Shown piece by piece: positions 3,132 through 35,508 of a stretch of DNA of 36,064 bases; position 1 is the first letter of the stretch, and every line of letters begins with the position of its first letter. The notes beneath the pieces were generated by a model that saw nothing but the letters and a program-made list of their open reading frames with translations, was not told the origin of the DNA and did not search any database. The stretch lies in assembly GCA_031265825.1 (NCBI GenBank), contig JAISCD010000074.1, forward strand, positions 1 to 36,064. The letters run 5' to 3'. Origin of the DNA: Treponema sp. GTDB lineage: Bacteria; Spirochaetota; Spirochaetia; Treponematales; Breznakiellaceae. The position numbers were made by a program, and so were the translations under genes.

Positions 3132-4073
3132 TTAGGGTGTTATTTTGATTGTTAATCCTGTCTCTATGAAAGAAAAGCCTGCTCCTGCAACGCCAGACTT
3201 GATGTAGCGGTTATTTATCTTTGTATAGGTTGATCCAGACGCGCCTGCCGTGTATTTATAGGAGAAAAAGAGGGCGATCGTGAAACGCGAGACAGCAAAG
3301 CTTAACTCGGCTTTTGGTTCAAGGAAAAACCCGCCTTTAAGATAGTCGTAAAACTCATTGCCGTAAGAGTAGGCGAGGTGTGTATCGTGCGCCATGCCAG
3401 AGATAAACGGACTTACATTGAAAGCAAAGTATATCTGGCAAGCGCCTAGCGGAAGAGCTAACGACGCTCCCAATCCCCCAATGAACCACATCTGTTTGTA
3501 GTTGATAGCCGCCCCTGTATAAGGCTTCTTGGGGAGAGAGTCGCTCCACGTATCGGAGGAGGAGACGTATTGATAATAACCATCTCTGGATTCAAAGGCA
3601 AAGTCTACGAATAAAACCGTGCTGTATACCTTAAAGACAAATATCTTGAAAAGCGGGAAGGAAACACCCGCGTCAAGGTTGAGGATAAGGGCGTTTTGTG
3701 TGTAGTTCTGATGTCGGGAATAATTGGTAAGTTGTCCGTAGGTTCCTGCCCAATCTCTGTCTTCCATGATGCCTGAGTCCGCGTTAATGCCGTATTTTAG
3801 GGTAGCTTCGGTGAAGAAGCCAAAGCCATCTAAGGGATTACGCCTCTCGAAGTTCATGGAAACGCCCCAGAATAAGAGAGGTTCCATATCCCAGAGTAAT
3901 TGGCTCAGATAATCGCGTGAATCACCGTCTTGATAGACGATTTCCTCGACTTGTCCGTAGAAAACGCCGAAGGACGCGCTACTTGAAGCCGAATAGAGCG
4001 GTTCTGCATGAGTGGAAAATAGAGGGAGAAACATATTGTAAAATATCCAAAAAAGCATTATATTTTTTATCAT
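3132..4073 (-). CDS. Omptin-like outer-membrane aspartyl protease
   Basis: A 313-residue protein with a signal peptide ending at about STHA (residue 23). The remainder alternates amphipathic strands, as in a ten-stranded barrel. Omptins (OmpT, Pla) cleave substrates at the cell surface using an Asp-Asp/Asp-His quartet. Here MEDRDW places Asp105 and Asp107 like the first pair, and HDTHL gives Asp230-x-His232 like the second, so the active site looks intact. I chose ATG 4073 because AGGAAAG precedes it by a normal spacing; a longer frame to 4133 has no ribosome site. Its ATG shares the CATG palindrome with the divergent gene at 4072. The stop TAA is followed at once by CACCCTAAGGGTG of repeat R1. 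Family assignment rests on motifs, length and topology. Confidence 0.8.
   Translation of the reverse strand: MIKNIMLFWIFYNMFLPLFSTHAEPLYSASSSASFGVFYGQVEEIVYQDGDSRDYLSQLLWDMEPLLFWGVSMNFERRNPLDGFGFFTEATLKYGINADSGIMEDRDWAGTYGQLTNYSRHQNYTQNALILNLDAGVSFPLFKIFVFKVYSTVLFVDFAFESRDGYYQYVSSSDTWSDSLPKKPYTGAAINYKQMWFIGGLGASLALPLGACQIYFAFNVSPFISGMAHDTHLAYSYGNEFYDYLKGGFFLEPKAELSFAVSRFTIALFFSYKYTAGASGSTYTKINNRYIKSGVAGAGFSFIETGLTIKITP
4036..4064 (+). promoter_or_regulatory. Promoter of the 4072 lipoprotein gene, leaderless arrangement
   Basis: TTGTAA (4036-4041), 17-nt spacer, TATATT (4059-4064), then 7 nt to ATG 4072. It lies inside the start of the divergent omptin gene. Confidence 0.5.
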
Positions 4074-4467
4074 GTACTTTCCTTTCTTTAAGATAGTCGG
4101 CGCCGCGGTGCCGCCCTCTGTAATCGCCTTCATTATACTCTTTTCCTGCGTTCAGGTACAAGACAACTTCTCCATTATACCGCCCCCTACCTTCCCTTTG
4201 TCAAGGGCTGTCATAGGTTACGGAGTTATTCTTCCTTCTTATACAAACCTCGTAAGCGAACCTGCCCTCGGTAGTTTCTCACGAGGTTATATGCGGCGAG
4301 GAACCGTCGTTAGCGTGCTTGAACGTAAAGCCATTCAGAAGCAGGACGCAATAGAATCATGGGTCTTCATCGAAGGCGGCTACAAGGGTTGGTTGAATGA
4401 GGAGCGGGTCTTCATCTATGACCACGAAGTTCAAGCAATAACCGCTTCAAATATGATGGATCAATGA
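4072..4467 (+). CDS. Putative lipoprotein with SH3-like C-terminal part
   Basis: 131 residues. The N-terminus has a hydrophobic stretch ending in IILFSC, a plausible lipobox with Cys26. The middle is Pro-rich. The C-terminal half (about 70-120, RRGTVVSVLERK...WVFIEGGYKGWLNEERV) resembles bacterial SH3-type modules, in which a variable loop is followed by a GW pair. I do not recognise a named family. There is no ribosome site; the start is supported only by a -10 box 7 nt upstream, and GTG 4108 is an alternative giving a shorter signal peptide. It overlaps the DUF445 gene by ATGA, so the two are translationally coupled. Confidence 0.65.
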   Translation: MYFPFFKIVGAAVPPSVIAFIILFSCVQVQDNFSIIPPPTFPLSRAVIGYGVILPSYTNLVSEPALGSFSRGYMRRGTVVSVLERKAIQKQDAIESWVFIEGGYKGWLNEERVFIYDHEVQAITASNMMDQ

Positions 4468-17389: not shown

Positions 17390-17573
17390 TTTCCTTAAAG
17401 TATTGTATATATTCAAAAGGAGTATAAATAAAGTATTGGACAAACCGTATTATGCGCCGTATATGGCGAACCGCAACAGCAGTCTTGCCCCTTGCCCGCC
17501 TTGTGTACATTTGACGACAAATGCATATAATCCTCCTAAAGAAGGATTCCTTTTGCCTCATAACAAAGCTAAC

Positions 17574-17846
17574 TTTAGTTTGCAGTCCGTTCTGTTTGAC
17601 TCGCAGTCCGTTCTGTTTGAGTCAAAGTCCATCCTGTTTGATTCGCAGTCCATGGACTTTGACTCGGAGTCCATGGACTTTGACTCGGAGTCCATGGATT
17701 TTGACTCAGAGTCCATGGATTTTGACTCAGAGTCCATGGATTTTGACTCGGAGTCCGTGGACTTTGACTCGGAGTCCACGGACTTTGACTCGGAGTCCAT
17801 GGATTTTGACTCGGAGTCCATGGACTTTGACATGAAATCCAAGCCG
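17574..17846. repeat. 21-nt tandem array C (about 12-13 units) in the leader of the 17956 gene
   Basis: Units begin TTTGACTC at 17595, 17616, 17637 and so on to a degraded one at 17826. The core is GACTC-(G/A)-GAGTC, flanked by CCATGGA. Neighbouring units can pair as TCCATGGACT with AGTCCATGGA across a 9-nt loop, so RNA of either strand can form a ladder of alternative hairpins. The first units differ (GCAGTCCGTTCTG), as if the array grew at its 3' side. Confidence 0.88.
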
Positions 17847-17942
17847 TTTATTTTCAAAATAAACGGTACGATTATACCTTGCGGGCGATTAGCGCCTCAT
17901 AAGGGAAAAAATATCCTGCGGACGATTCACGTCTCGCAAGGA
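17844..17942 (+). promoter_or_regulatory. Structured leader between array C and the gene
   Basis: A perfect inverted repeat CCGTTTATTTT-C-AAAATAAACGG lies at 17844-17866. Next, CCTTGCG (about 17877) can pair with CGCAAGG (about 17935), closing a 60-nt loop just before the ribosome site AAAAGGAGAAA. An imperfect direct repeat of about 30 nt (TGCGG(G/A)CGATT) lies inside the loop. It could control access to the ribosome site. Confidence 0.45.
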
Positions 17943-17955
17943 AAAGGAGAAAGAA

Positions 17956-18678
17956 ATGGTAAAGAGAAACGATTGGTTACCCGCTGGGCGCATATCGATC
18001 ATAGCGATGTGCCGTAAGTGGATAGCGTACATTACTGAAGCCCTGAGAACGGCTTGGGGCATACCCGCGGAACAGCTTGCGGCTCTGAAAGCCCTCCTTG
18101 AGACCGCGGAAGCGCTCTTGCAGAAGGCTATGGACAGCGCGGAACGAACCCATGTGATCACGGTGGAGTGTCAAGCGGCGTTTACGGCGTTGAAGGAGAA
18201 GATGCGCTTCTTCCGAGACCGGTATTTCAAACTACCGCCGCTGACCGAAGGGGACTGGGCGGCTCTGGACTTCCGACCCAAGGACACGCACCCGACGCCG
18301 GTACCGGCGCCTGACGGGGTGCCAGCGGTGTCCCTGAGTTACCCCGGCGGTCCCCACGCGCTAACCGCGCATCTGGGTCCCATGCCCGGCACGCAGGAAC
18401 TCGATCAGACGAGCGACTACGGCTACACGCTCTACGTGGGCATCATGCCGCCCGGCGGAGCAACGCTGGAACAGGCGGCGTCTGAGAAGCACTACTTAAT
18501 GAAGGCGCCTGCGGACGGGAAGGGTCTCCAGCACTTTCGGTTCACCCGGCGGCGCAAGGAGAAACTCCTGTTTGACACCGAGGACGGAGGCATGACGATC
18601 TATATCTGTTGCCGCTACGAAAACCAGAAGGGCGAAGTAGGGCAGTGGGGGCCGGTAGCCTCCGCGGTGATACCGTAA
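17956..18678 (+). CDS. Unknown-family protein, paralog 1 of the array-linked module
   Basis: 240 residues, no signal peptide. The N-terminal half (about 1-105) is helical, starting NDWLPAGRISIIAMCRKWI. After a Pro-rich linker (about 108-125) the C-terminal half looks beta-rich, with DYGYTLYVGIMPPGGA, FRFTRRRKE and a final RYENQKGEVGQWGP...IP. That ending resembles an immunoglobulin/fibronectin-like strand pair, but I do not recognise the family. It is a clear paralog of the gene at 27804: WLP-R-I-AMCR-WI, MPPGGA-E-A--EK, FTRR-KE and RYEN-KGE-G-WG are shared. Both have RBS AAAAGGAGAAA and a 21-nt array in the leader. A hairpin follows the stop. Function unknown. Confidence 0.85.
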   Translation: MVKRNDWLPAGRISIIAMCRKWIAYITEALRTAWGIPAEQLAALKALLETAEALLQKAMDSAERTHVITVECQAAFTALKEKMRFFRDRYFKLPPLTEGDWAALDFRPKDTHPTPVPAPDGVPAVSLSYPGGPHALTAHLGPMPGTQELDQTSDYGYTLYVGIMPPGGATLEQAASEKHYLMKAPADGKGLQHFRFTRRRKEKLLFDTEDGGMTIYICCRYENQKGEVGQWGPVASAVIP

Positions 18679-18774: not shown

Positions 18775-19386
18775 ATGAAAAAAATGAGTATGGTTCTGTT
18801 AAGCGCGGCGTTTAGTCAAGACTGGGTCGCGGACCCTGAAAGCGACTTCGAGGTAAGTCTCAATAATGCGTCGGACGGGTACATAATCAGGAAGTACACC
18901 GGTTCCGACCGCGATGTTGTCATCCCGGCGGAGATACAGGGCTTCCCGGTCAGGGAGATTAGCGATCGGGCGTTCTTGGGGTGCGGTAGTCTTGACTCGG
19001 TCGCCATACCGGACAGTGTTACAAAGATTGGCGCGTATGCGTTTATGGACTGTAGTAACCTAGCTTCGATTGCTATACCGGACAGCGTTACGGAGATTGG
19101 CAAGCAGGCGTTTATGGGTTGTATTCGCCTCTTCTCGGTCGCCATCCCGGACGGCGTTACGGAGATTAGCGAGGGTACGTTTATGGATTGTATTCGCCTC
19201 GTCTCGGTCGCCATACCAGACAGCGTTACGGAGATTGGCGCAGGGGCGTTTTCTCGGTGCTGTAGCCTCATAAGGTTGACTATTGAGCCTGTTAAGCGCA
19301 AATGGATGTGTAACTTCTCCGATTGCAAACTCAACTTTATATCTCAGGCCGTGCTCAGGAAGGCGGGTTATACGGGTAGGTTTTAG
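18775..19386 (+). CDS. BspA-type leucine-rich repeat protein, LRR paralog 1
   Basis: 203 residues. An N-terminal cap (SDFEVSLNNASDGYIIRKYTG...VVIPAEIQGFPVREI) leads into about five 23-residue repeats of the TpLRR/BspA class (IPDSVT-IG--AF--C--L--V). A conserved C-terminal cap follows (RKWMCNFSDCKLNF...AGYTGRF). BspA-type LRR proteins are usually surface or secreted adhesins in treponemes and Bacteroidetes. The signal peptide is shortened (MKKMSMVLLSAAFSQDW) compared with paralogs 2 and 3, so export is doubtful. RBS AAAGGAA precedes the start. It is first of five tandem paralogs with 5, 8, 6, 7 and 6 repeats. Confidence 0.9.
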   Translation: MKKMSMVLLSAAFSQDWVADPESDFEVSLNNASDGYIIRKYTGSDRDVVIPAEIQGFPVREISDRAFLGCGSLDSVAIPDSVTKIGAYAFMDCSNLASIAIPDSVTEIGKQAFMGCIRLFSVAIPDGVTEISEGTFMDCIRLVSVAIPDSVTEIGAGAFSRCCSLIRLTIEPVKRKWMCNFSDCKLNFISQAVLRKAGYTGRF

Positions 19387-19454
19387 CCGCGCTGGTGTCA
19401 GTCATGCGTCTATTGCCGGTGGGCATAATACGCAAAGGAGTAAATAATAAAAAA

Positions 19455-20291
19455 ATGAGATTGGTTCTGCTCTGTGCGGTGTTTCTTGGAGCAGGCGCGG
19501 CTTTCGGTCAAGACAGGGGCGCATCCCCTGAAGGCGACTTCGAGGTAAGTCTCAACACTGCGTTGGGCGGGTGGATAATTACCGGGTATACAGGCGCCGG
19601 CGGCGATGTTATCATCCCGGCGGAGATACAGGGCTTGCCGGTCCGGGAGATTGGCGCAAGGGCGTTTGAATACTGTAGTAACCTCGTCTCGGTTGCCATA
19701 CCGGAGGGCGTTACGCAGATTGGCGCGGGGGCGTTTTGGGAGTGTAGTAGCCTAGCCTCGGTTGCCATCCCGGACGGCGTTACACAGATTGGCGGGGCGG
19801 CGTTTTATGGTTGCAGTAGCCTAGCCTCGGTTGCCATCCCGGACGGCGTTACAGAGATTGGCGCGGGGACGTTTCGGGAGTGTAGTAGCCTTGCCTCAGT
19901 CGTCATCCCGGACGGCGTTACAGAGATTGGCGAGCGGGCGTTTTCTGAGTGCAGTAGCCTTGTCTCGGTTGTCATACCGGACGGCGTTACGCAGATTGGC
20001 GAGGCGGCGTTTGCTTGGTGCGGAAGCCTTATCTCGGTTACCATACCGGACGGCGTTACGAAGATTGACGCATGGACGTTTGCGTACTGCGAAAGCCTCG
20101 TCTCAGTTGCCATACCGGACAGCGTTACGCTGATTGGCGAGGGGGCGTTTCGGGGTTGCAGTAGCCTTACCACGGTGGATATTGCGCCCATTAACCGCAG
20201 ATGGAGCTTGGACATTTTCGCCAATTGCGGCAAAATCAGCCTTGCGTCTCAGGCGGCGCTCAAGCGGGCGGGGTATACAGGCGAGTTTTAG
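19455..20291 (+). CDS. BspA-type leucine-rich repeat protein, LRR paralog 2 (eight repeats)
   Basis: 278 residues with a complete signal peptide (MRLVLLCAVFLGAGAAFGQ), the common cap and eight 23-residue repeats, the longest of the cluster. The start is set at 19455. Compared with paralog 1, the leader AAAGGAGTAAATAAT has lost the G of the ancestral ATG, so translation must begin at the next ATG, about 14 nt from the ribosome site. A longer frame to 19395 has no ribosome site and would put non-homologous residues before the signal. Expression may be reduced. It is probably exported. Confidence 0.9.
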   Translation: MRLVLLCAVFLGAGAAFGQDRGASPEGDFEVSLNTALGGWIITGYTGAGGDVIIPAEIQGLPVREIGARAFEYCSNLVSVAIPEGVTQIGAGAFWECSSLASVAIPDGVTQIGGAAFYGCSSLASVAIPDGVTEIGAGTFRECSSLASVVIPDGVTEIGERAFSECSSLVSVVIPDGVTQIGEAAFAWCGSLISVTIPDGVTKIDAWTFAYCESLVSVAIPDSVTLIGEGAFRGCSSLTTVDIAPINRRWSLDIFANCGKISLASQAALKRAGYTGEF

Positions 20292-20590
20292 CGGCGCGGG
20301 TGTGGGGGGTGGCGGAAGACCGCGCCCCCCTCCTAAAAGTTAGCAGTTAGCAGTTAGCAGTTAGCAGTTAGCAGTTAGTAGTTAGCAGTTAGCAGCTAGT
20401 AGTTAGCAGTTAGCAGTTAGTAGTTAGCAGTTAGCAGTTAGTAGTTAGTAGTGAATAGTGCGGCGGTGTCAGACAACGCGGAGGTTCCGCTTGCTTGCAA
20501 GCGTAACCGTCAGGTCGGGGACAGCGGCACACCCTTTCAAACAGCGCCCCGTATGAAGTATTTAAACACCCTTCGGGTGAGGAGTACGTA
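20292..20590. repeat. R2 fragment, long heptamer tract and R1 before LRR paralog 3
   Basis: A truncated R2 (20295-20338, ending GACCGCGCCCCCCTCC) is followed by about 17 units of TTAGCAG/TTAGTAG (20339-20460) and a reverse R1 whose palindrome CACCCTTCGGGTG ends immediately before the ribosome site of the next gene. Confidence 0.8.
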
Positions 20591-21295
20591 ATGAAAAGAA
20601 TGAGATTGGTTCTGCTCTGCATAGTGTTTCTTGGAGTGGGCGTGGCTTTCGGTCAAGAAAGGACCGCGTCCCCTGAAGGCGACTTCGAGGTAAGTCTCAA
20701 CACTGCGTTGGGCGGGTGGATAATTACCGGGTATACAGGCGCCGGAGGCAATGTTGTCATTCCGTCGGAAATACAAAGTATCCCGGTTCGGAGGATTGGC
20801 AGGGAGGCGTTTTATTTTTGTAGTAGCCTTGTCTCGGTCGTCATACCGGATGGCGTTACGGTGATTGGTGCGGTGGCGTTTTGGGATTGTAGTAACCTTG
20901 TCTCAGTCGGCATACCGGAGGGCGTTACGGCGATTGGCGCGGGGGCATTTATGGAGTGCGGAAGTCTTGCCTCGGTCGTCATACCTGACAGCGTTACGTT
21001 TATTGGCGAAGGGGCGTTTGCTTGGTGCGAAAGCCTTGTCTCGGTCGCTATACCGGACCGCGTTAGGCTGATTGACGTGGCAGCGTTTTATGAGTGTCGT
21101 AGCCTAGCCTCGGTCGCCATATCTGACAGCGTTACGGAGATTGGCGATGGGGCGTTTAGGGAGTGTAGTAGCCTTGTAACGGTGGATATTGCACCCATTA
21201 ACCGCAGATGGGGCAGGGACAGCTTCTCCGGTTGCAAACTCAGCCTTGCATCTCAGACGGCGCTCAGGAGGGCGGGGTATATGGGCAGGTTTTAG
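20591..21295 (+). CDS. BspA-type leucine-rich repeat protein, LRR paralog 3 (six repeats)
   Basis: 234 residues. Intact signal peptide MKRMRLVLLCIVFLGVGVAFGQ, the N-terminal cap (DFEVSLNTALGGWIITGYTG, as in paralog 2), six repeats and the cap PINRRWGRDSFSGCKLSLASQ. RBS GAGGAG lies directly after the R1 palindrome. The upstream block replaces the leader shared by the other paralogs, so its transcription may differ. Predicted exported. Confidence 0.9.
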   Translation: MKRMRLVLLCIVFLGVGVAFGQERTASPEGDFEVSLNTALGGWIITGYTGAGGNVVIPSEIQSIPVRRIGREAFYFCSSLVSVVIPDGVTVIGAVAFWDCSNLVSVGIPEGVTAIGAGAFMECGSLASVVIPDSVTFIGEGAFAWCESLVSVAIPDRVRLIDVAAFYECRSLASVAISDSVTEIGDGAFRECSSLVTVDIAPINRRWGRDSFSGCKLSLASQTALRRAGYMGRF

Positions 21296-21307
21296 CGCAC
21301 TTTGGCT

Positions 21308-21342
21308 AAAAGCGGCGCTGGTGTCAATCATGTGCCGCTTTT
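21308..21342 (+). terminator. Hairpin between LRR paralogs 3 and 4
   Basis: AAAAGCGGC pairs with GCCGCTTTT across an 18-nt loop containing GGTGTCAATCA. The ribosome site of the next paralog follows within about 20 nt, so it may be a terminator or part of the duplicated leader. Confidence 0.5.
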
Positions 21343-21374
21343 GTCGGCGGGCATAATACGCGAAGGAATAAGTA

Positions 21375-22121
21375 ATGAGAGAACAGATATACGCGGCGTC
21401 CGATCAAGACCGGGCTGGCAAAGCCGCTCCGGAAAGCGACTTCAAGGTAAGTATCAATGATACGCTGGACGGGTGCATAATCACCAAGTATAGCGGTACC
21501 GGTGGCGATGTTATCATTCCGGCGAAGATACAGGGCTACCCGGTCAAGGAGATTAGCGGAAGGGCGTTTGTTGATTGTTGTAGCCTTACCTTGGCCGCCA
21601 TCCCGGACAGCGTTACGCTAATTGGCAGTGGAGCATTTTCTGGTTGTGATAACCTTACCTCTGTCGCCATACCGTATGGCGTTACACTAATTGGTAGATA
21701 TGCATTTCAAGGCTGTGGTAGCCTAGCCTCGGTTGCCATACCGTATGGCGTTACAGCGATTGGTGAGGCGGTGTTTTTGGGTTGCAGCAACCTTGCTTCG
21801 GTTACCATACCGGATAGCGTTACGCTGATTGGCGTGGGGACGTTTATGGGTTGCAGGAGCCTAGCCTCGGTTACTATACCGGACAGCGTTACGCTGATTG
21901 GCGAGTGGGCGTTTTCCAAGTGCGCCAGCTTAGTTTCGGTCGCCATACCGGACAGCGTTACGCAGATTGGTAGGGGGGCGTTTAGGGATTGTAGTAGCCT
22001 TGTAACGGTGGATATTGCGCCCATTAACCGCAAATGGGGCAAGGACAGCTTCTCCGGTTGCAAACTCAGCCTTGCGTCTCAGGCGGCGCTTAAGCGAGCG
22101 GGGTATACGGGCGGGTTTTAG
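21375..22121 (+). CDS. BspA-type leucine-rich repeat protein, LRR paralog 4 (no signal peptide)
   Basis: 248 residues, seven repeats. It starts MREQIYAASDQDRAGKAAPESDF, where paralogs 2 and 3 have a hydrophobic signal followed by the aligned FGQDR...SPEGDF. The signal core has been replaced by a short polar segment, so export by the Sec route is not expected. RBS GAAGGAA. Repeats and C-terminal cap (RKWGKDSFSGCKLSLASQ) are otherwise intact. It may be an unexpressed donor copy for recombination with the exported paralogs. Confidence 0.88.
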   Translation: MREQIYAASDQDRAGKAAPESDFKVSINDTLDGCIITKYSGTGGDVIIPAKIQGYPVKEISGRAFVDCCSLTLAAIPDSVTLIGSGAFSGCDNLTSVAIPYGVTLIGRYAFQGCGSLASVAIPYGVTAIGEAVFLGCSNLASVTIPDSVTLIGVGTFMGCRSLASVTIPDSVTLIGEWAFSKCASLVSVAIPDSVTQIGRGAFRDCSSLVTVDIAPINRKWGKDSFSGCKLSLASQAALKRAGYTGGF

Positions 22122-22133
22122 CGCACTTTGGCT

Positions 22134-22168
22134 AAAAGCGGCGCTGGTGTCAATCATGCGCCGCTTTT
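22134..22168 (+). terminator. Hairpin between LRR paralogs 4 and 5
   Basis: AAAAGCGGCGC (22134-22144) pairs perfectly with GCGCCGCTTTT (22158-22168). It is a near copy of the 21308 hairpin, which shows that gene and leader were duplicated together. Confidence 0.6.
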
Positions 22169-22200
22169 GTCGGCGGGCATAATACGCGAAGGAGTAAATA

Positions 22201-22878
22201 ATGAGAGAACAGATATACGCGGCATCCGATCAAGACCGGGCTGGCAAAGCCGCTCCGGAAAGCGACTTCAAGGTAGAAAGCAATGCTACGTTGGACGGGT
22301 GTATAATCACCAAGTATACCGGTCCTGAGGGCGATGTTGTCATCCCGTCGGAAATACAAGGTATCCCGGTCCGGAGGATTGGCAGGGAGGCATTTTGGGG
22401 TTGTAGTAGCCTTGTCTCGGTCGTCATACCGGACAGCGTTACGCTGATTGGCGTAATGGCGTTTAGGGGTTGTAGCAACCTAGACTCGGTCATCATACCG
22501 GACAGCGTTACGCTGATTGGCTGGTATGCGTTTTCTCGTTGCAGTAGCCTTGTCTCGGTCATCATCCCGGATAGCGTTACGCGGATTGGCTGGGAGGCGT
22601 TTAGGGGTTGTAGTAACCTAACCTCTGTCGTCATCCCGGACAGTGTTACGTGGATTGGCTGGAGGGCGTTTGAGGGCTGTACTAGCCTAGCCTCGGTCAT
22701 CATACCGGACAGCGTTACGCTGATTGGCGATGGGGCGTTTAGGGAGTGTAGTAGCCTTGTAACGGTGGATATTGCGCCCATTAAGCGCGAATGGGGCGCG
22801 AACAACTTCGACGGTTGCAAACTCAGCCCTGCGTCTCAGGCGGCGCTCAAGAAGGCGGGGTATACGGGCGGGTTTTAG
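22201..22878 (+). CDS. BspA-type leucine-rich repeat protein, LRR paralog 5 (no signal peptide)
   Basis: 225 residues, six repeats. The first 25 residues are identical to paralog 4 (MREQIYAASDQDRAG...), again without a signal. The repeats differ from paralog 4 (RGCSNL, SRCSSL, EGCTSL), and the part just after the cap (VVIPSEIQGIPVRRIGREAF) is closer to paralog 3, which suggests mosaic exchange. RBS GAAGGAG. The gene ends 10 nt before an R2 copy. Confidence 0.88.
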   Translation: MREQIYAASDQDRAGKAAPESDFKVESNATLDGCIITKYTGPEGDVVIPSEIQGIPVRRIGREAFWGCSSLVSVVIPDSVTLIGVMAFRGCSNLDSVIIPDSVTLIGWYAFSRCSSLVSVIIPDSVTRIGWEAFRGCSNLTSVVIPDSVTWIGWRAFEGCTSLASVIIPDSVTLIGDGAFRECSSLVTVDIAPIKREWGANNFDGCKLSPASQAALKKAGYTGGF

Positions 22879-32657: not shown

Positions 32658-33678
32658 AACTAAATACTGCCTTTTCTGAATAATCCCTTTCAGGACCAAA
32701 GATGCAGGAAGGGAACTGCGGGTTGTTGGGGGAATCCGGGAAGTGTTGAGTTTCTAGGCAGAAGCCGTTACGTCGGGCATAGATTGAACCGGTCTTTCCA
32801 TGAATACCGTTGAGGTAGTTCCCAGAGTAGAATTGGACACCGGGCTGTGTGGTAAAGACGCGCATACTCCGCCCTGAGGCGGGTTCAAAAACCTCGGCGC
32901 AGGGGCGCAGGTTCCCCATGTCGCCGTCAACTACAAAACAATGGTCGTACCCGTTGGGCGTTGATCCAATATCGTTTCCAATAGGCTTTCGAGTCTTGAA
33001 ATCAAAGGGAGTACCTTGCACGGGCAAAATCTTACCTGTTGGGATGCCGTCCGCGGCGACCTCTACATAATAAGACGAATGAATAACGGCTTCATGCGCG
33101 AGAATATCTCCCCTTCCTTCGCCCGCAAGGTTGAAATACGCATGATTAGTCAGATTCACAGGACAATCCACATCCACTTTCGCCTTGTAAGTCGCCACTA
33201 CTTCGTTTGACTTGGTGAGTCCATAACAAACCACAGCTTTTAACGCGCCGGGAAAGCCCTCGTCTCCATCTGGGCTGTCCAACTCGAAACGGACGAAGAC
33301 CCCGTCATCTGTTTCAAACTGATCCGCTTCCCACACAAGCCTGCCGAAATTCTTCAATCCTGAATGGAGGCTGTTCTCTCCGTCGTTCTTGAGGAGCGTG
33401 AACGTCTTGCCGTTAAGGTCAAATCGGGCGCCGCCTATGCGGTTGGCGAAACGCCCCACAGTAACGCCGAAGAAAACCGTATCCACGGCGTATCCGCCCA
33501 GCGTTGAATAGCCAAGCAAGACATCGGCGATGCCGTTCTTCTTTGACGGCACGTTCAAAGACGTCAGTGTCGCGCCTAAAGTAGACACGGAGAGGCGCAG
33601 ATCTCCTGCGCTCAGTGTATAAAGGGCAACTTCTTCCCCATTGGAAAGAGTCCCGAATGGTTTTTTGATGATTTTCAT
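32647..33678 (-). CDS. galM: Aldose 1-epimerase (galactose mutarotase)
   Basis: 343 residues. GalM interconverts alpha and beta anomers of galactose and glucose. Landmarks: FGVTVGRFANRIGGARFDLNGK, GLKNFGRLVWEA, the catalytic-site His in NLTNHAYFNLAG, PNGYDHCFV, and the catalytic Glu region QTQPGVQFYSGNYL near 280. ATG 33678 is preferred over a longer frame to 33714, because MKIIKKPFGTLSNG matches the family N-terminus. A TATACT box lies 6 nt before ATG with no Shine-Dalgarno, so the mRNA is probably leaderless. It heads a two-gene operon with the phosphodiester glycosidase. Confidence 0.92.
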   Translation of the reverse strand: MKIIKKPFGTLSNGEEVALYTLSAGDLRLSVSTLGATLTSLNVPSKKNGIADVLLGYSTLGGYAVDTVFFGVTVGRFANRIGGARFDLNGKTFTLLKNDGENSLHSGLKNFGRLVWEADQFETDDGVFVRFELDSPDGDEGFPGALKAVVCYGLTKSNEVVATYKAKVDVDCPVNLTNHAYFNLAGEGRGDILAHEAVIHSSYYVEVAADGIPTGKILPVQGTPFDFKTRKPIGNDIGSTPNGYDHCFVVDGDMGNLRPCAEVFEPASGRSMRVFTTQPGVQFYSGNYLNGIHGKTGSIYARRNGFCLETQHFPDSPNNPQFPSCIFGPERDYSEKAVFSFDW

Positions 33679-33684
33679 GGAGAG

Positions 33685-33714
33685 AGTATACCACAAGACC
33701 AGACAAAGAAACAA
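33685..33714 (-). promoter_or_regulatory. Promoter of galM, leaderless arrangement
   Basis: Minus strand: TTGTTT (33709-33714), 18-nt spacer, TATACT (33685-33690), 6 nt, ATG 33678. Confidence 0.55.
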
Positions 33715-33761
33715 GCGATTTTACGACTGCGCCGTGTAATTGATATTTCTTAAAAAGCCTC

Positions 33762-33789
33762 TTGCAATTTAGGCGAGACGCGCTATAAT
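33762..33789 (+). promoter_or_regulatory. Promoter reading into the poly-C tract
   Basis: TTGCAA (33762-33767), 16-nt spacer, TATAAT (33784-33789), 7 nt, ATG 33797. Leaderless arrangement. It is the only good promoter upstream of the 33895 gene. Confidence 0.65.
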
Positions 33790-33851
33790 AAACGTTATGA
33801 AACAAAATCGTCTCTATAATAAATTTCAATTCGGACAGCGTACTCTTTTTA

Positions 33852-33862
33852 CCCCCCCCCCC
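33852..33862 (+). repeat. Poly-C tract (11 C), candidate phase-variation site
   Basis: Eleven C in a row. From ATG 33797 the present frame stops at TAG 33875. With 12 or 9 C the frame would run without a stop into the 33895 gene. The tract also lies just upstream of a second TATAAT (33868-33873), in the position of a promoter spacer. Confidence 0.8.
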
Positions 33863-33894
33863 ATAGCTATAATATAGCTCACTCGCAGTATCGC

Positions 33895-34470
33895 GTGCCG
33901 ACTCACGCGAAGCTCACGCTTGTTCGGCGGCGGTTACGGTTTTTTCTGTGGTTCTTTTTACTTTGCGGTTTTCTGCATGGGGAACCGCAAAAAGGCAACA
34001 CAATATTCCTTGACCTGAATCCGTCACTCCTCGCTCTTTTCTATTTACCTCTGGACATTGAAGGATTTGGTATAGAATTTGGTTACCTGCGGGATCTCCC
34101 ACGGGGATTTGCGCTTATGGGCGATATAGCTTTTCTCTCATTATCCCAATGGGGAGCGGATTTTTCCGTTTGGGATCTAAGCCTTTGCGGACGCTATACA
34201 ATGGTGGAAAAGGGCGCTGTCGCGTTTTTTTCCGCGCTAAAAATGGGCGCCTTGCTTTACACTTCGCCCTATTATGAGGGAGGTACTTTTACTGTAGGCA
34301 TAGAACTCGGTCTGCGGCGTAGGATAGGTGCGCGTTTTATGATAGAACCCTATATTCTGTGCGCCGTTTTCGCGGACGACCGCTATCTCATGCCTTTTAC
34401 TATGGAAACTCTCACCGAACTTTTGCTTCCCGGCTTCAAGGCTGGTGTGCGTTTCGGCGTGGTTTTTTAA
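33895..34470 (+). CDS. Putative outer-membrane beta-barrel protein, possibly phase-variable
   Basis: 191 residues from GTG 33895. A basic stretch (LTLVRRRLR) and hydrophobic core FFLWFFLLCGFLHG form a signal peptide. The mature part alternates aromatic/Gly strands (GIEFGYLRDLPRGFALMGDIAF, AFFSALKMGALLYT, GFKAGVRFGVVF ending in Phe), as in small barrels. I do not recognise the family. There is no good ribosome site at GTG. With one C more in the upstream tract the protein would instead start at ATG 33797 and carry an extra N-terminal stretch of about 33 residues. The phosphoesterase follows after 24 nt. Barrel call is by pattern only. Confidence 0.65.
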   Translation: MPTHAKLTLVRRRLRFFLWFFLLCGFLHGEPQKGNTIFLDLNPSLLALFYLPLDIEGFGIEFGYLRDLPRGFALMGDIAFLSLSQWGADFSVWDLSLCGRYTMVEKGAVAFFSALKMGALLYTSPYYEGGTFTVGIELGLRRRIGARFMIEPYILCAVFADDRYLMPFTMETLTELLLPGFKAGVRFGVVF

Positions 34471-34494
34471 GTCCATATAAGGGGGGTGGTAACC

Positions 34495-35508
34495 ATGATA
34501 AGGAGCTTATGCGTTCTATTCTGTTTGGTTCTTGCCGCGTGTGGGGAGGATTTCAACTTTGTAGGCGATACATGGAGACCCGTTTCGGAATTCCGTATCG
34601 GCGACTACGCAGGGCTTGTAAAAAAAGACGGGGTTGATTTTCGTATTTTGCAGTTTACCGACACGCACATAAATACCTGGTACGATTCTCCTTCCACTCT
34701 GGAAAGAACCTATTCCCTGATGGCTCGCGCCATAAACGCGACGAAGCCAGAGCTTCTGGTCTTGACGGGAGACAATGTGGGGAATTTCTTCAATCCTGTC
34801 TGGAGTCAGCAACTTATTGCTTTTCTCGATTCTTTCGAGATTCCCTACGCTCTTGTCATGGGAAACCATGACGGCGACTTCGTTCAGATGGAAGATGGCA
34901 ATCTTCAGCGCCGTATCGCGGAACTTTTTGTCAGGGGACGGTATTCGCTTTTTGAGAAAGGTCCGGAGAATGTAAGTGGAACGGGTAATTACGGGGTTAA
35001 TTTGTTCAATCGGAGGGGCGAAGTTCTTTATAGTTTGATCTTGTTGGATTCGCACAGCGACTATATTCGGCGGGATCAGGTTGATTGGTATGAATGGTAT
35101 GTACGCGGCGTTGAAGTCGCGGCTGGAAGGGCGGTAGGGAGTCTGGCTTTCTTTCATATTCCCCCGCCGGAAATCAAATTCATTCATCAAGAAATGAAGG
35201 AACAGGGGAAAAAAGACGAGGCGGGGCGTTCCGCAGAGGAAGCTTTTAAAGAGCCTCCTAATGTACAGAGTTGGAATGCGGGTCTCTTTTCCCGTATGCG
35301 GGAGCTTGGAAGCACATCTCATATATTTTTCGGTCATGATCATCTGAATGTGCTTGATTATGAGTATCAGGGCGTTCATTTTGTATATGGTCTGAAGACG
35401 GGTTATTGCGCGTATAACGATCCTGATTCGGTTGGGGCTGTCCTTATCGTCTTGCGCGGGGAAACCGCGGGTGATATGCGCGTCAGCGTGGATTTCTGGT
35501 ATTTCTGA
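34495..35508 (+). CDS. Calcineurin-like metallophosphoesterase, lipoprotein
   Basis: 337 residues. Lipobox LVLAAC places the mature Cys at about residue 16. All metal-binding motifs of the superfamily are present in order: DTH in QFTDTHIN (near 55), TGDN (near 92), GNHD (near 123), a His in FHIPPPE (near 222) and GHDHLN (near 280). The pattern resembles purple acid phosphatase/Dcr2-like enzymes that hydrolyse phosphomonoesters or diesters outside the cytoplasm. ATG 34495 follows AAGGGGGG at good spacing and is preferred to GTG 34486. It is probably co-transcribed with the barrel-like gene 24 nt upstream. Confidence 0.9.
   Translation: MIRSLCVLFCLVLAACGEDFNFVGDTWRPVSEFRIGDYAGLVKKDGVDFRILQFTDTHINTWYDSPSTLERTYSLMARAINATKPELLVLTGDNVGNFFNPVWSQQLIAFLDSFEIPYALVMGNHDGDFVQMEDGNLQRRIAELFVRGRYSLFEKGPENVSGTGNYGVNLFNRRGEVLYSLILLDSHSDYIRRDQVDWYEWYVRGVEVAAGRAVGSLAFFHIPPPEIKFIHQEMKEQGKKDEAGRSAEEAFKEPPNVQSWNAGLFSRMRELGSTSHIFFGHDHLNVLDYEYQGVHFVYGLKTGYCAYNDPDSVGAVLIVLRGETAGDMRVSVDFWYF

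Follow-up and report, generated by a model that had tools for sequence, protein, structure and literature searches.

A poly-C tract in a leader reading frame as a putative on/off switch of an exported protein gene in a Treponema genome

Results

A tract of 11 C was found between a promoter-proximal ATG and the gene for a 191-aa exported protein in a 36,064-nucleotide stretch of a Treponema draft genome (GenBank assembly GCA_031265825.1, contig JAISCD010000074.1, positions 1 to 36,064 of the forward strand; hereafter "the window"). We consider it fairly probable that this tract is a slippage-driven translational on/off switch, i.e. a contingency locus, which has been assembled in its OFF length. 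Comparison within the genome and across the genus gives good support to a frame switch, because the same layout recurs at other loci and similar copies differ by one C.

In the proposed mechanism, the promoter P1 would give a leaderless mRNA starting at ATG 33797, on which ribosomes would translate 18 codons and then enter the C run. At 11 C translation would end at TAG 33875 and ATG 33797 would yield no exported protein (OFF); with 12 or 9 C the ribosomes would read approximately 10 more codons and run on through the signal peptide into the outer-membrane-type protein (ON). Replication slippage would shift the length of the tract, so that single cells would flip between the two states.

Structure of the locus and reading frame of the leader

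The following features make up the locus:
33762..33767, + strand: −35 hexamer of P1, TTGCAA, from the sequence and a promoter scan; TTGCAA or TTGTAA in the homologous leaders of genomes G002 and G006
33784..33789, + strand: −10 hexamer of P1, TATAAT, after a spacer of 16; invariant in a four-way alignment of homologous leaders
33797..33851, + strand: ATG with 18 leader codons (MKQNRLYNKFQFGQRTLF) and the A of the next codon, from sequence and translation; the ATG lies 7 nt past the −10
33852..33862, + strand: poly-C tract of 11 C in the sequence, the proposed slippage switch
33865..33879, + strand: AGCTATAATATAGCT, a 7-1-7 palindrome which contains a second TATAAT (33868-33873); role doubtful
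33875..33877, + strand: TAG which closes the leader frame at 11 C, from translation
33895..34470, + strand: gene for the 191-aa exported, probable outer-membrane beta-barrel protein, from its signal peptide, C-terminal Phe and relatives
34495..35508, + strand: metallophosphoesterase with a lipoprotein-type signal (PF00149, E = 6.5e-14), the partner gene of the 191-aa protein gene

An earlier sequence-only reading had given TTGCAA-16-TATAAT, ATG 33797, C11 at 33852-33862, TATAAT 33868 and TAG 33875, and all of these were right to the base. P1 is the sole sigma70-like match in 33600-34700, agreeing at 10/12 positions; this match alone proves little, since shuffles of the region yield 1.0 such match on average. 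The sequence ATGAAAC is invariant in the alignment of the window leader with the homologous leaders L184 (G006), L198 and L181 (both G002), and the mRNA from P1 is probably leaderless, starting at ATG 33797.

We translated the leader in silico with 8 to 14 C. Only 9 and 12 C open it into the 191-aa ORF, through GTG 33895, as the sequence-only reading had predicted, while with 8, 10, 11, 13 or 14 C a stop follows 0-4 codons past the tract. At 11 C the leader ends in PPP-IAII and then TAG 33875. A change of one unit thus alters the reading frame at this tract, and would be expected to alter expression. In the ON state the protein would have ~33 extra residues ahead of its signal peptide. It should be noted that an internal start near GTG 33895 could make the protein at any tract length, since its relatives start at about this position.

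It had also been suggested that the tract controls transcription by its spacing to the second TATAAT. In this explanation TATAAT 33868 would be the real promoter, the tract would lie over its −35 or spacer and set promoter spacing or strength, and the gene would start at GTG 33895. The TATAAT does lie 5 nt past the tract, GTG 33895 is homologous to the start of the relatives, and opc of Neisseria meningitidis works without a clear −35, this region being covered by its poly-C, which tunes transcription (PMC7864442). However, no good −35 was found at any spacing (by eye, the best matches were 3/6 at a spacing of 16 and 1/6 at 17 and 18), P1 further upstream is a better promoter, GTG 33895 has no Shine-Dalgarno sequence, and at many sister tracts the strong promoter is instead found 55-120 nt upstream. 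TATAAT-like words 5-14 nt past tracts number 21 in 65 loci against ~17 from composition by our own estimate, which is close to the local A + T expectation. Spacing control is thus an unlikely explanation for this locus.

The 191-aa protein

The 191-aa protein has a signal peptide, a C-terminal Phe as in all of its relatives, and 14 invariant residues common to these relatives. It had no Pfam match above cut-off, and its relatives gave sub-threshold matches to DUF3575, OMP_b-brl and autotransporter models; membership of OmpW, Tpr or another named family was not found with Pfam, where the relatives resemble DUF3575 and OMP_b-brl only weakly. A family-profile search of solved structures returned only chance matches, and a single-sequence structure prediction was uninformative (pLDDT 36). 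The earlier description of the protein as "barrel-like" is made plausible by the C-terminal Phe and the weak matches of the relatives, but those matches are all sub-threshold and the predicted structure adds nothing to them; an outer-membrane beta-barrel is a reasonable but unproven assignment.

The layout recurs across the host genome

The host, which we take to be an uncultured termite-gut Treponema (the termite gut being read from isolate codes and lineage), is represented by a 1.8 Mb draft assembly (G000) of 117 contigs, estimated to be 57% complete. Judged by a DUF445-type protein, Treponema MAGs such as Cc175_bin106 come closest among named relatives, at 70-75% identity. The genome contains about 105 tracts of C9 or longer (C9+), and we studied tract context in stretches fetched around these. 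Some 70 runs of this kind, the window tract among them, occur in the genome, and many have the same arrangement of promoter, start and poly-C.

We searched for this layout as an ATG upstream of the tract, open into the tract, with a sigma70 promoter 4-9 nt before it (score ≥ 9). It was found at 17/50 G000 tracts compared with 2.1% of 3476 control ATGs, and in a second count, by a best-of-several procedure, at 16/61 tracts compared with 2.1% of random positions. The 17 loci are not all independent, because several are related copies. Overall, about a quarter to a third of C11/C12 tracts carry the layout of the window, with 18-40 open codons. Most of the promoters are TTGACA-17/18-TATAxT with the ATG 6-9 nt on, the window locus being among them, and this distance from the −10 leads us to infer leaderless mRNAs. 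A looser pattern (TATANT-ATG-C9) was present in 10 of the 12 congeneric genomes, with its backward control also matching in a few.

Copies of related leaders were found to differ by one C. In one paralogous set of leaders, the C11 copies L020 and L056 are closed and the C12 copy L026 stays open for 300 codons; in G002, L198 has C11 and L181 has C12. At a further locus (L050) a C11 tract stands directly before a signal peptide and is open. The frame logic, the recurring layout and these one-C differences between copies support the on/off switch put forward in the sequence-only reading, in which slippage in living cells and OFF/ON expression are putative steps.

At 23 of 29 layout loci the leader stops within 11 codons past the tract at its assembled length, and the assembled length is the longest phase in 4/29, fewer than the one in three that would be predicted. 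A gene start with a Shine-Dalgarno sequence could be recognised at 14 loci; in 10 of these at least one tract phase keeps the leader open up to that start (shuffles predict 2.5), and the assembled length does so in 1/14. These mostly closed loci fit switches caught OFF; they also fit the view that a short leader peptide is the normal product.

In the latter explanation the poly-proline stretch and early stop would themselves be functional, via ribosome stalling or transcription attenuation, and the C run would be kept for its prolines or as a phase-variable attenuator. Besides the early stops, it is favoured by terminator-like hairpins between tract and gene in 6/38 leaders, compared with 1.0 in shuffles. 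Prolines, however, need neither a pure C run (any CCN codon would serve) nor variation in length from copy to copy, and there is no terminator between tract and gene in the window or in most other leaders. We find it improbable that a regulatory leader peptide accounts for the window locus.

Hairpins with T runs between poly-C and gene were seen at L197, L203, L074, L081, L106 and L086. Ribosome-controlled attenuation may operate at some sister loci, though not at the window locus, and the leaders with hairpins may be phase-variable attenuators. Terminator attenuation as a general mechanism was rejected, as a hairpin was present in only 6 of the 38 leaders and in none at the window locus. A conserved dyad past the tract was also rejected: 10 inverted repeats were counted compared with 4.7 in shuffled sequence (maximum 9), and this is not a specific element because a similar excess exists upstream of the tract.

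By simple ORF calling, the next 3′ gene lies on the C strand at 40/47 G000 tracts and on the opposite strand at 7. This bias cannot be taken as genus-wide, because it was absent or reversed in the small G002 and G003 samples. The genes at sister tracts include, by Pfam, glycosyltransferases (GT2, GT8), LicD, TylF and other methyltransferases, cytidylyltransferases, a ManC-type nucleotidyltransferase, lipoproteins and an OMP_b-brl porin. An association with surface and glycan genes is therefore seen both in these matches and in the exported protein of the window. Several genes appear to be frame-split at their tract. In one of these stretches (L091:908-2784) a G11 tract separates the EIIB part of a PTS sugar transporter from its EIIC-EIIA part, and the two are read in different frames, making it a candidate phase-variable sugar transporter.

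The leader and the gene pair have separate relatives

The promoter, ATG and first codons of the window align with L184 (G006), where a C12 tract lies upstream of an unrelated gene. The window leader also aligns with the G002 copies L198 and L181, both of which are at contig ends with their genes beyond the sequence. In a family-wide search, relatives of the 191-aa protein were found at 28-51% identity in six other genera, and a search of the host contigs and of the same genus returned none. Downstream of the 191-aa-type gene, a metallophosphoesterase follows wherever the neighbour could be read, namely in L163, L164, L165, L166, L180 and L168. No poly-C precedes those relatives whose upstream DNA was readable; in alignment the N termini of the relatives fall within a few residues of GTG 33895, and several have, by eye, an ATG soon after a TTGACA-TATA promoter. 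The phosphoesterase relatives within the genus (L041 and L042) have neither an outer-membrane-type gene nor a tract.

We read the tract-bearing leader as an addition in this lineage, made by insertion or by tract growth in a new leader, because relatives of the gene pair lack the tract and homologues of the module stand at other loci. Promoter, ATG, leader and poly-C would then form a module present at many genes of the genus, placed here before an otherwise conserved pair of protein and phosphoesterase genes. As a wider and more tentative proposal, which is quite possible without being favoured, the module would stand before unrelated genes throughout, its C count would gate the leader, and its length would be set per species. 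The gating would work through direct fusion, which would be the case in the window, or else through translational coupling to the next gene or its attenuation.

Length of poly-C tracts in the host and in the genus

Among roughly 100 G000 tracts whose lengths were read there were 57 C11, 15 C12 and 17 C10, with almost none of C8-C9. In 229 kb of DNA sampled around C9+ tracts, C/G runs numbered 6 of length 7, 1 of 8, 1 of 9, 11 of 10, 44 of 11 and 11 of 12. Exact-length counts were made genome-wide, and here G000 contains 4 exact C8 runs versus 62 exact C11 runs. For A/T runs in this genome, numbers fall off smoothly up to length 10 and show no second peak. The window tract is therefore far beyond chance, because C/G runs peak separately at 11 while poly-A/T decays smoothly, and it is a long pure repeat of the kind found at contingency loci.

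A separate GC-rich repeat, dispersed in the genome, accounts for most of the C10 tracts, and its C9-C10 runs were set apart as a different class. This repeat (gtgcgccccctgtctcc...ggtcttccgccaC9-C12aac) has its own poly-C end, occurs at L017, L019, L038, L047, L057, L080 and others, and seems to have no relation to the leader modules. At the ends of G000 contigs C4, C27 and C113, very long runs of C or of mixed C/G were artefact-like and were set aside. The base following a C9+ tract is G or A, with T in only 3/68 cases in G000, 0/23 in G002 and 2/24 in G003, unlike C4-C5 runs.

The 11 other genomes of the genus contain 36-180 C9+ tracts each. The mode of length is 11 in G002 and 14-16 in G003. 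Exact C15 runs number 88 in G007, 52 in G008, 41 in G009, 31 in G010, 28 in G003 and 22 in G001, and there are 0 in G000, G002 and G006; exact C11 runs number 62 in G000, 20 in G006 and 9 in G004, and 0-1 in G001, G003 and G007. The congeners thus group around 11-12 or around 15 C. Long artificial poly-C at some contig ends (C4, C27) and the use of a draft assembly alone would fit poly-C runs being mutational by-products or assembly errors, with a fixed true length at the window locus, but this is very unlikely given species modes of 11 or 15 with a gap at 8-9 and no such peak in poly-A, the bias towards the coding strand and the repeated promoter-ATG arrangement. Species with modes of 11 and 15 are worth comparing for a difference in mismatch repair or polymerase, and these species-specific lengths provide a natural system for asking how a hypermutable tract comes to its equilibrium length.

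Comparison with known phase-variable systems

Neisseria, Haemophilus and Campylobacter carry contingency genes in which coding tracts shift the reading frame, often of surface or glycan genes and in large genome-wide sets. The window locus and its sister loci resemble these in having a homopolymer near the 5′ end, a reading-frame on/off logic and a large set of tracts; the genus differs in that many tracts follow a probably leaderless sigma70 module common to unrelated genes, with a species-specific length of about 11, or 15. The general class of coding-tract contingency genes is described in PMC11868660.

A further likeness is to N. meningitidis opc, where, according to Sarkari 1994 as cited in PMC5084427, a poly-C lies in the promoter of an outer-membrane protein gene. 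Both have poly-C of similar length before an outer-membrane protein gene, a probable one in the window, and a slippage switch, which in the window is a proposed one. However, the opc tract is in a promoter and acts on transcription, whereas the window tract lies most simply inside a translated leader, where it would set the frame.

The sequence-only reading had also drawn on Treponema pallidum, where the tpr genes and tp0126, which encodes an OmpW relative, have poly-G of 7-11 in their promoters, with a transcriptional effect and measured length variation (PMC7864442). This analogy holds in principle, as both cases have a homopolymer before membrane-protein genes in the same broad bacterial group, but not in mechanism, as the T. 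pallidum tracts are promoter poly-G with transcriptional effects, and the window protein has no OmpW match.

Large slippage repertoires are known mainly from pathogens and vertebrate commensals, possibly through database bias (2025 review, PMC11868660), and a comparable set in a genus of insect-gut symbionts would make a strong test case. In a search of a paper library that covers few subscription papers, we found neither a description of a shared leaderless module before unrelated genes nor one of such a system in termite-gut treponemes.

Other features were noted elsewhere in the window. At 17403-18017 there is a leader-like ORF which is related to those of L020/L026 but lacks a long C tract; it is followed by 21-nt coding repeats (FDSESMD) and a paralogous gene. 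The window commonly has repeats of 7, 14 and 21 nt. Positions 18775-22878 encode five tandem paralogous proteins with 69-nt (23-aa) BspA-like leucine-rich repeats (VAIPDSVTEIG...), and an omptin-family outer-membrane protease homologue (PF01278, E = 3e-26) is encoded at 3132-4133.
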